NCBI RefSeq assembly: GCF_000246985.2
Contig: NC_022084.1
Span: forward strand, 243,994-307,993
Direction: 5' to 3'
Length of the DNA: 64,000 bases
DNA from: Thermococcus litoralis DSM 5473
GTDB taxonomy: Archaea > Methanobacteriota_B > Thermococci > Thermococcales > Thermococcaceae
The notes below the pieces were generated by a model, which was not told the DNA's origin, did no database searches, and saw nothing but the letters and a program-made list of their open reading frames with translations. A program made the position numbers and the translations under genes. This document shows, one piece after another, positions 43,064 to 46,500 of this stretch; the first letter of the stretch is position 1, and each line of letters opens with the position of its first letter.

Positions 43064-44044
43064 ATGAGAGAGCTGAGGTTTAACCCTTTAACCGGGCAGT
43101 GGATAATGGTTTCCGCCGTTAGGAGGAACCGCCCTTGGAGGCCTAGAGACTTTTGTCCTTTCTGTCCTGGAAGTGAAGAGACGGGTTACGGCTGGGAGGT
43201 TCTTCTTTTACCGAATAGATTCCCCATGCTGTCTTTTGATGCTCCAAAGCCGGAGCAGGAGGAATTTTACACAAAAGCTAGAGCCATCGGGCAGTGCAGT
43301 GTTATAGTAGAAACCCCCGAACACGAACTGAGGGATCTCGACGAGCTTCCGAAGGAGCAGATGATAAAAGTCGTAGAGCTGTGGAAAGAGGCAACTGCCA
43401 AGCTCATGGAAAACCCCAGAGTGGCTTATCTCGCAATCTTTCGCAACAAAGGGGAAGAGATAGGGGTTAGCCTAACTCACCCTCACGGTCAGCTCTATGC
43501 GTTTCCCTTTATCCCGCTCAAGGCTAGATTGAAAATCGAAAACTCAAGGAACTACTACCACCGTTTTGGAGAATGTCTATTTTGTAGAATACTTGAAGAA
43601 GAGGCTAAAGGAGAGAGAGCTATCTATGAAAACGAAAGCTTCATTGCGTTCATGCCCTTCTTCGCCAGCTGGCCTTTTGAAATCCATGTGTATCCAAAGA
43701 GGCATGTTCAGTATTTAACTCAGCTTAACAGCAAAGAGACGAGAGATTTAGCCGATGTGCTTCAAGTTGTTACTGGAAGCCTAAATGAAGTCTTAGAGAG
43801 AGACATGCCCTACACGATGATGATCTTCCAGGCACCGTTTAAAGGGAAATACCCCTTCTACCACCTGCACATCGAGTTCTACCCAATCCTAAGGGACAAC
43901 GGAAAGGTCAAATATACTGCCGGTATTGAATTGGGCACATGGGAATTCACTTATGATGGAGTTCCAGAAGAGAACGCGAGAAAGCTCAGAGAAGCCTGCA
44001 AAAGAGTTGTAAAAAGGCTAAACGCAGAGGGCAGGTGTTTTTAG
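43064..44044 (+). CDS. galT: Galactose-1-phosphate uridylyltransferase
   Basis: A 326-residue HIT-superfamily enzyme that exchanges UDP between UDP-glucose and galactose 1-phosphate. The nucleophile motif is T-H-P-H-G-Q near residue 142. Zinc-site Cys pairs F-C-P-F-C and L-F-C-R-I-L and the second-domain H-L-H-I-E-F are seen. GGTGGTGAT precedes the ATG. It is divergent from the GH1 gene across a 93-base shared promoter region. No galE epimerase is in the window. It overlaps the convergent EndoQ gene by four bases. Confidence 0.95.
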   Translation: MRELRFNPLTGQWIMVSAVRRNRPWRPRDFCPFCPGSEETGYGWEVLLLPNRFPMLSFDAPKPEQEEFYTKARAIGQCSVIVETPEHELRDLDELPKEQMIKVVELWKEATAKLMENPRVAYLAIFRNKGEEIGVSLTHPHGQLYAFPFIPLKARLKIENSRNYYHRFGECLFCRILEEEAKGERAIYENESFIAFMPFFASWPFEIHVYPKRHVQYLTQLNSKETRDLADVLQVVTGSLNEVLERDMPYTMMIFQAPFKGKYPFYHLHIEFYPILRDNGKVKYTAGIELGTWEFTYDGVPEENARKLREACKRVVKRLNAEGRCF

Positions 44045-46500
44045 GCTTTCTTCAAGAAGCTCAAAATCGAGCTCTGTTTTGGTTTGTAGTAGACATCTTC
44101 ATGTTTTATTTCTATACCCTCAATATCTTCAAGCTTAGCTTTCTTTACCTCTTCCGGAAGCTTAATTTCTCCGTATTTGCCTCCTCCACCGGGAATTACG
44201 ATAAGCTTTTCATTCCTGAACGCCCAGATTGCCTTGGTTATTTCTTCTCCAATCAGCTTGGCTATACTTTTTATCGGAACATCGACCAAAACGGCAATTT
44301 CACTGCCGAACTCCCTAAGCAGCCTTTCCCATACACTTTTGACGGCTTTGGTTTCAACACCTTTGTTGAGAACCATGGCTATTATCTCCGCAAGGGGAGC
44401 CAAATGGAGGTAAGGAGGTCTGTCCTTTGGCTTTTCGTTTGTATCGGCAAGCTCAAGAATCCTATCATGAACTCCCTTCTTTATAATTCCCCCGCAAAGC
44501 TCACATCTCCAGTTTAATCTCTTCGCGTCTTCGAGCCTGTATTTGGTGTAGCACTTTGAGCAGGCTGTTAGGTGATACTTGCCCAACCTTGGATCAAGTC
44601 CGGCGTTGAGGATTATCTTCCTCCCTCCCCGCTTTAAGATAGCCTTTCTAACCTCATCAAACGTCGCATCCTCAATCTCAAAGCGGTTAAACTCCCTACC
44701 AAGTCTATGGGGCATTGGAGAATGAGCGTCGGAGTTGCTTAAATAGGTAAGCTTGTGATGAGCCTTTATCCTGTCGGCCATATAAGAATCGGCAGAAAGG
44801 CCGAGCTCAAGGAAGTGAACCTTAGCGTCGCCATATGCCTCTTTAAGGCTGTTGTACTCCTTGTAGAGAGCTGTCCAAGGTGTGAAGCAATTGTGAAGTG
44901 TTCCAGATTCAGTTACATAACTTGAATCTTCTTCAACTTCGAGGTTGTACACGATACCATCATATGGTTCCTTTTCAATTCTGATAATTGGCAAGTAGAA
45001 GTAGACTCCATCAAACCACCCATATCTAATGTCCCCTTTTGGGAGTTTGGTTATTCCTCTTTTCTTCAGCATGTTTTCAATTTCATCGTTAAATGTACTT
45101 ATCCTTGCTTGCCATCTGTCATGAGTAGTTTTGGCATTTCTTTTACCAATTTTAGCACTTTTGACTTTGTGTCTGCTAAAAGTTGAAATAAAGCCATTCC
45201 TCATCGCTATAATGTTCATTTGGTTCATCAGGATCCTTGAGGTAGTTACTCCACCATCCCCTTTCCACCATCCCACAAATATCTCAAATTGTTTTTCTGG
45301 TGGGAGATATAGAAATTCATGCGGCAGTTGCTTGTTCCATGCCCTCTTTTCTTTGCCTTTAATGTAAAACATTTCTCCAAAGAAATTTCTCAGAACTCTG
45401 CTGTAAACTTTTAATTCGTATCCTTTTCCTCGCTTGTCATTTCTAATACTCGGCTTGACTCCGAAGATTTCCTTTAGCAATGTAGTTATATCGTCTATAA
45501 CATCAGTTTCCTCTTCACTCAATGAGAAGGTTATCCCATCCCTAAAGCAACTACCTTCGGCCAAGAAGTACCCTACTAATCTGCAAAATTCTTTTGAGAC
45601 TTCTATTTCTTCGGGGGTGTCCTTTTTCCACTTGTTTGAGGCAACACTATCTATAAATTCCTTAAGGGAAATTCTTTTGATATCCCTAATCTCTTTCAAA
45701 ACAGGGAAAAGGACAACGTCACCGATTTTTAGATCCTTTGCCATAACCCATTCGGGTTTATAAGTTGAATAATATCTTTTGCAGTTCCTTCCCCTCTTCT
45801 TCATTGAAAACTGCCTCTTACATGTGGGTTTGCATATCCCTCGGACTCCGTGGCATGCAGGACTTGTTTTGATTGCATAAATTGGGTGCTCGGGCGTTAC
45901 GATTATCGGCTCTGGAATGTATCTAACTTTAATTTTCAAAATGTTGCCAGTATGTTTCCTTTTATAGACCCTCGCTATCCGTCTAAATCTTCCATTATGG
46001 GTTAGCACTTCATCTCCCTCTTTGACATCGCTGATTTTTGTGATGCCCTTCCTTAAGATCAAGAGTGTATCGGGAGGTACACAATGCGCGGGACCTATCA
46101 AAACGTCAAGCTCATTTGCTAAATCCGCTATTTCAGCGGGACTTAAATTTGCATGCGGTCTTCCTTCGGTTTCAATATCCTTTGAGTAGGGGTTGAGCCT
46201 TTCACGCATCTCTCTTACCGCGTCAATAGAGGGAAAAATCAGGAGATGATGAACTCTTCTGTTATCCTCAACTTCAGCCGTAAGGAGAAACCTCGCACCT
46301 TTTATTTCATAACTTCCCTCATCAACTTTTTGAGCAGCTTTTAAAAGCTCCTTCTCCCATTGAGGATTTAGAATATCTCCAGTGCCCACAATTCCGAGAC
46401 CCTTGAGCTTTGCGTTTTCTGCTAAAATAGGGAAGGTCATTAACTTTGAGACCGCCTTGGAGTAGCGGGAGTGGATGTGCAGATCAGCATCAGTTATCAT
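44041..46500 (-). CDS. endoQ: Endonuclease Q (PHP-domain DNA repair nuclease), intein-interrupted
   Basis: An 819-residue precursor that splices to a 421-residue EndoQ, the archaeal enzyme that nicks DNA 5' of deaminated bases. PHP metal motifs are D-L-H-I-H-S (H7, H9), G-T-G-D, I-G-P-A-H (H139), and S-N-S-D-A-H-S after the intein. Zinc Cys pairs are C-S-K-C-Y and C-E-L-C-G. The C-terminal Q-S-S-I-L-S-F-L (809-816) fits a PIP box, in keeping with the known EndoQ-PCNA interaction. The 398-residue intein splits the protein directly after His139. GAGGTGC precedes the ATG. Confidence 0.9.
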   Translation of the reverse strand: MITDADLHIHSRYSKAVSKLMTFPILAENAKLKGLGIVGTGDILNPQWEKELLKAAQKVDEGSYEIKGARFLLTAEVEDNRRVHHLLIFPSIDAVREMRERLNPYSKDIETEGRPHANLSPAEIADLANELDVLIGPAHCVPPDTLLILRKGITKISDVKEGDEVLTHNGRFRRIARVYKRKHTGNILKIKVRYIPEPIIVTPEHPIYAIKTSPACHGVRGICKPTCKRQFSMKKRGRNCKRYYSTYKPEWVMAKDLKIGDVVLFPVLKEIRDIKRISLKEFIDSVASNKWKKDTPEEIEVSKEFCRLVGYFLAEGSCFRDGITFSLSEEETDVIDDITTLLKEIFGVKPSIRNDKRGKGYELKVYSRVLRNFFGEMFYIKGKEKRAWNKQLPHEFLYLPPEKQFEIFVGWWKGDGGVTTSRILMNQMNIIAMRNGFISTFSRHKVKSAKIGKRNAKTTHDRWQARISTFNDEIENMLKKRGITKLPKGDIRYGWFDGVYFYLPIIRIEKEPYDGIVYNLEVEEDSSYVTESGTLHNCFTPWTALYKEYNSLKEAYGDAKVHFLELGLSADSYMADRIKAHHKLTYLSNSDAHSPMPHRLGREFNRFEIEDATFDEVRKAILKRGGRKIILNAGLDPRLGKYHLTACSKCYTKYRLEDAKRLNWRCELCGGIIKKGVHDRILELADTNEKPKDRPPYLHLAPLAEIIAMVLNKGVETKAVKSVWERLLREFGSEIAVLVDVPIKSIAKLIGEEITKAIWAFRNEKLIVIPGGGGKYGEIKLPEEVKKAKLEDIEGIEIKHEDVYYKPKQSSILSFLKKA
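44890..46083 (-). mobile_element. Intein with LAGLIDADG homing endonuclease in EndoQ
   Basis: Residues 140-537 of the precursor. Splicing residues are Cys140 first, His536-Asn537 last, and Cys538 as the +1 extein nucleophile. Block A is C-V-P-P-D-T-L-L-I; block B is V-T-P-E-H. A four-Cys segment (C216, C223, C227, C240) lies between block B and the endonuclease and could bind zinc. The two DOD motifs are L-V-G-Y-F-L-A-E-G (308-316) and F-V-G-W-W-K-G-D-G-G (408-417), so the endonuclease looks intact. Block F is Y-D-G-I-V-Y-N-L-E-V. Confidence 0.93.

Follow-up and report, generated by a model that had tools for sequence, protein, structure and literature searches.

The endonuclease Q (EndoQ) gene of Thermococcus litoralis is interrupted by a class 1 intein that contains a LAGLIDADG homing endonuclease and that very probably entered the gene recently by horizontal homing. 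The gene lies in a 64,000-nucleotide stretch of contig NC_022084.1 (hereafter, the window, to whose first nucleotide all positions refer), where positions 44041–46500 of the minus strand form a single ORF of 819 amino acids with the intein inside. The intein is real and chance plays no part in its recognition. It is accompanied by a short tract of divergent bases around the insertion point that includes the codon for the residue following the intein.

The EndoQ Host Gene

The ORF was assigned to EndoQ from matches to the TIGR00375 profile and to PfuEndoQ (PDB 5zb8 and 7k30). Its N-extein (46084–46500, minus strand, like all the features of the precursor given below) corresponds to EndoQ residues 1–139 and ends in His139, and its C-extein (44041–44889) corresponds to residues 140–421 plus the stop codon. 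Removal of residues 140–537 of the ORF leaves joined exteins of 421 amino acids, which gave a full-length alignment with PfuEndoQ 5zb8 (E = 4e-206) and were aligned to both structures across residues 1–400; PfuEndoQ has no counterpart of the 44890–46083 insertion. The zinc ligands Glu76, His84, and His139 are all present in the EndoQ of the window, and their columns are invariant among the aligned EndoQs. According to a review of EndoQ structures, these three residues bind the active-site Zn, replacement of any one of them by Ala abolishes activity, and His139 also contributes to the exclusion of normal bases (PMC8307549).

Both exteins are under purifying selection. Compared with the closest relative (genome G075, 96% amino acid identity, dS 0.21), the N-extein had a dN/dS of 0.13 and the C-extein one of 0.08, values that cover the time since the two lineages separated, a separation possibly older than the insertion. 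These low values fit a spliced, working EndoQ, with the reservation that part of the history that they record may precede the insertion. In addition, the gene shares four bases (44041–44044) with a convergent galT-like gene (43064–44044, plus strand), and its C-terminus, QSSILSFL (44041–44100), looks like a PCNA-interacting (PIP) motif, in agreement with reports that EndoQ binds PCNA.

Anatomy and Fold of the Intein

The intein comprises residues 140–537 of the ORF (44890–46083) and is full-length, with 398 amino acids that include a Hint splicing domain and a LAGLIDADG homing endonuclease. Its first residue is a Cys (TGT, 46081–46083), at which the match to the N-terminal intein profile TIGR01445 begins, and its last two are H397-N398 (44890–44895), recognised in the sequence and by the C-terminal profile TIGR01443. 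Block B contains the sequence T63-P-E-H66 (45886–45897), invariant across 25 aligned inteins. The residue that follows the intein is also a Cys (Cys+1, 44887–44889), residue 140 of the mature EndoQ. This combination of Cys1, TxxH, His-Asn, Cys+1, and a Hint fold, as read from the sequence and an AlphaFold2 (AF2) model, is that of class 1 inteins. Two LAGLIDADG motifs are present with one acidic catalytic residue each, E176 in LVGYFLAEGSC (45547–45579) and D276 in FVGWWKGDGG (45250–45279), the latter placed by the intein alignment, and the LAGLIDADG_3 profile (PF14528) was matched above its cut-off, as were TIGR01445 and TIGR01443. The boundaries, the intact splicing residues, and the two endonuclease motifs of the original prediction thus proved exact to the base. 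The intein is probably active, and its homing endonuclease looks intact.

The AF2 model of the isolated intein (pLDDT 81, pTM 0.81) had as its closest fold the TliVMA intein (7qsu, E = 2.6e-21), followed by PI-SceI, PI-PfuI, and further inteins with homing endonucleases; a model of the whole precursor was set aside, as its intein part was of low confidence. Base composition was considered as a sign of foreign origin and dropped: the EndoQ intein and the Tes intein of T. litoralis both have a GC content of 39%, so composition is uninformative on origin.

The splicing domain contains a variable loop with four cysteines, C77, C84, C88, and C101 (45781–45855), in the arrangement C-x6-C-x3-C-x12-C, a spacing that appears unlike that of a standard zinc ribbon. 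This segment had been proposed to add metal or redox control to splicing, a role for which we found no support. It is the part of the AF2 intein model with the lowest confidence (very low), a search for its relatives in the 115 genomes of the phylum returned chance-level matches only, and it is absent from the aligned Hel308, Tes, phage, and plasmid intein relatives.

Insertion Beside an Active-Site Zinc Ligand

The intein directly follows His139, whose codon (46084–46086) encodes its −1 residue, within target codons for I-G-P-x-H/x-F-T-P-W. His139 is invariant in the orthologs and an essential Zn ligand in PfuEndoQ, where H139A abolishes activity (PMC8307549), so that the placement of the insertion next to an active-site His, anticipated from the sequence, is correct. 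The 12-residue segment spanning residues 134–145 is among the most conserved of EndoQ, with only 0.5% of windows of this size lower across 98 orthologs, and highly conserved sites are the typical location of inteins (PMC2814812). As a class, native inteins lie at a mean of 8.3 Å from active sites, versus 21.1 Å for other Cys, Ser, or Thr sites (PMC3359363), and the position beside His139 is thus, by itself, no argument for regulation. The precursor, with His139 joined to the intein, would probably be an inactive nuclease until splicing.

Sequence Changes around the Insertion Site

Comparison of the joined coding sequence of T. litoralis with that of G075 revealed nine differences in nucleotides 408–429, where the insertion point falls after nucleotide 417, and none in the 46 nucleotides before or the 74 nucleotides after this tract. 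In codon shuffles scored by their maximum anywhere in the gene, such clustering was reached in 2 of 5000 trials, a figure that refers to a footprint in a single genome, spotted after viewing the alignment, at a position that was, however, set by the intein. When only the changes specific to T. litoralis were considered, that is, those at which genomes G075, G080, and G077 agree, 6 out of 24 were inside the tract, a number equalled in 15 of 20,000 shuffles. Since the three relatives agree at these six positions, the change happened in T. litoralis. All but one of the six are silent and at the third position of a codon, the exception being in the +1 codon. In window coordinates, the upstream arm of the tract covers at least 46084–46093, possibly reaching 46139, and the downstream arm, which holds Cys+1, covers at least 44878–44889, possibly reaching 44805.

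The residue at +1 is itself unusual. Once duplicates are removed, 93 orthologs from the phylum have Ala there, 4 have Ser, and T. litoralis alone has Cys. A wider archaeal scan returned Ala at 83 of 84 matched loci, a set that includes some of the same Thermococcales and that was obtained with search patterns partly favouring Ala. An intein followed by Ala is unable to complete splicing. The simplest reading of the sequence is that the approximately 22 bp around the insertion site are a short co-conversion tract that delivered Cys+1, and a divergent tract of this kind, with Cys+1 in it, points to a recent arrival by homing from a divergent donor. A precedent exists in haloarchaeal mcm, where alleles with Pro at +1 can be invaded only if this residue is co-converted to Ser (PMC10643990). 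No donor allele was found among the orthologs compared; the one with the most similar tract still has Ala at +1 and departs from T. litoralis at 4 of 33 bases.

Distribution and Relatives of the Intein

An EndoQ match was detected in 108 of the 115 genomes of the phylum, and the insertion in T. litoralis only; in every other Thermococcales genome in which the site is covered, EndoQ is uninterrupted, which answers the question, raised with the original prediction, of whether these orthologs have insertions at this site. Among the matches listed for three other archaeal phyla (158, 138, and 22 genomes with EndoQ), a search with the Methanococci outside it, no intein-like split EndoQ was detected. 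Three genomes of these other phyla with a split EndoQ were examined as possible carriers and proved to have frameshifts or contig ends, and six further candidates were discarded because the gaps were too small for an intein or the pieces were on separate contigs.

Residues 137–140 of the target are odd in several close relatives (five loci), with the forms IGPGH-A and IGAAH-S and with Ser at +1 in four genomes. Past occupancy may have left them as scars; alternatively, they may confer resistance to the endonuclease or have arisen by drift. In addition, the EndoQ of G077 has a stop codon within the match and a sharply divergent C-terminal end, and a second C-terminal fragment was found elsewhere in that genome. 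In the T. litoralis genome itself (2,215,172 bp), N-terminal intein signatures scored above the cut-off at about 16 places, with two or three of them in each of several genes, including MCM, RFC, and PolB; the VMA intein of this genome shows no difference from TliVMA across residues 2–429.

No close relatives of the EndoQ intein were found in the genome contigs or in the viral contigs, and the plasmid and phage collections returned only distant inteins, with 21–26% identity. Among the latter were two full-length relatives, one in the portal gene of the Eggerthella phage LE2-3 and another in a cyanobacterial plasmid of Annamia dubia, in genes annotated only as portal and hypothetical. The match to the portal protein intein covers the full length (E = 2e-34), although that intein belongs to a bacterial phage, resides in another host protein, and lacks the Cys segment. 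Within the order, the best full-length relatives were the Hel308 inteins of Thermococcales, with around 31% identity over residues 1–390. They share with the EndoQ intein the order of domains and the E and D acids in the two motifs, but they reside in another host and site, have Ser at +1, and are devoid of the four-Cys segment. The TliVMA intein of the same organism (PDB 7qss and 7qsu) and PI-SceI show the same architecture, with a Hint domain and a two-motif LAGLIDADG endonuclease, and TliVMA cleaves DNA at its own homing site (PMC8966425); its identity to the EndoQ intein is, however, of about 17% in the fold alignment, and its host and site are different.

Evidence for a Related Intein at the Same Site

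The profile used to annotate EndoQ also matched the intein. Intein residues 264–397 matched positions 2–134 of TIGR00375 (85.7 bits, E = 4e-24); the alignment passed without gaps from the end of the intein into the C-extein, which occupies model positions 135–374. The N-extein matched the same positions 2–134 with 60.5 bits, so the N-terminal third of the model recognises both EndoQ N-exteins and the intein segment at 44890–45294. No match to TIGR00375 was found for the four other Thermococcales inteins tested, two from Hel308 and two from Tes. The model thus appears to be a mixture, contaminated by an intein that was misaligned against the N-exteins of the other members, and the gapless passage from intein to C-extein implies that the seed already included a related intein inserted at this site. 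We take the seed protein in question to be MJ0043 of M. jannaschii, the host of the intein named "Mja Hyp-1" in InBase.

The seed intein would share with that of T. litoralis the host family and the insertion point, and it is related to it, as seen indirectly through the profile. EndoQ is thus probably an intein host already on record under an uninformative name, and T. litoralis a second lineage with the same allele, which weakens the earlier suggestion that EndoQ might be a new host. No paper linking EndoQ with an intein was found in the literature. The type of element is known and its site was probably known before; the new part is the co-conversion footprint at base level.

Discussion

According to the history that we propose, an EndoQ allele lacking the intein would be cleaved by the intein endonuclease at the sequence encoding I-G-P-x-H/x-F-T-P-W. 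An intein-bearing donor allele would serve as the template for repair, and the intein would be copied together with just around 22 bp, and at most around 140 bp, of the DNA next to it in the donor. With this flank, a codon for Cys, the nucleophile required by the intein, would replace the one for Ala (or Ser) at +1, and self-splicing would then leave a 421-residue EndoQ with Cys140 adjoining the zinc ligand His139. The inactivity of the precursor before splicing would be a by-product of the targeting of a conserved site and not an evolved regulation. That homing overcame in this way a residue forbidding splicing, with the Cys codon copied over that of Ala or Ser and a Cys left permanently beside the zinc ligand, seems likely to us, if less so than the recent entry itself.

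The original prediction had contemplated that splicing could gate a DNA-repair nuclease, and a related possibility is that the intein is retained as a switch, with active EndoQ produced only under certain conditions of temperature, redox, or metal, as in the RadA of P. horikoshii. The insertion right after an essential Zn ligand, the cluster of four Cys, and the conditional splicing described for the RadA intein, also in a repair protein of Thermococcales (PMC5790916), would agree with such a role. However, inteins are found near active sites as a rule (PMC3359363), the Cys segment is without relatives, and the intein is present in one genome only, with the footprint of a recent arrival. The generic location, together with the sporadic distribution and the homing footprint, suggests a recent selfish arrival, so we regard retention as a switch as improbable and the proposal of a repair gate as unsupported. 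A dead element that no longer splices, leaving the strain effectively null for EndoQ, could be tolerated if EndoQ were dispensable, as it may be, but the splicing residues are all intact, stop codons are absent, and both exteins have a low dN/dS, which makes this the least credible of the explanations considered.

A different history would have the intein in the ancestor of the genus, followed by its loss in the relatives through replacement by empty alleles, in which case the local differences would be those of the relatives, the result of chance, or the consequence of selection at the splice site. The odd target residues of these relatives (IGPGHA in G075, IGAAHS in G080, and Ser at +1 in G077, G080, and G084) are what such losses might have left behind. 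Nevertheless, G075, G080, and G077 concur at the six tract positions, which places the change in T. litoralis, and five of these changes are silent ones at third positions, of no use to splicing. The loss would require, moreover, many independent exact deletions. An old intein thus seems to us hardly likely, and we favour recent horizontal homing.

The parallel with the MCM-d intein of haloarchaea is close, as it likewise needs co-conversion of the +1 position where the host residue bars splicing (PMC10643990). In that case the change was from Pro to Ser, whereas in EndoQ a Cys would have taken the place of Ala (or Ser), and the length of donor flank that came with it can be read base by base.

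The putative co-conversion footprint is unusually clear, and the EndoQ allele of T. litoralis would be a natural and clear-cut record of intein homing, in which donor flank, +1 nucleophile, and insertion were copied jointly within a few tens of bases. It would illustrate how inteins enter sites whose native +1 residue cannot splice. The predicted mature enzyme, with Cys140 beside His139, has no equivalent in any other EndoQ examined, and the replacement of Ala by Cys at position 140 offers a testable change beside an essential zinc ligand in a repair enzyme with solved structures. If the proposed origin of this Cys is true, the parasite has edited the catalytic pocket of its host.
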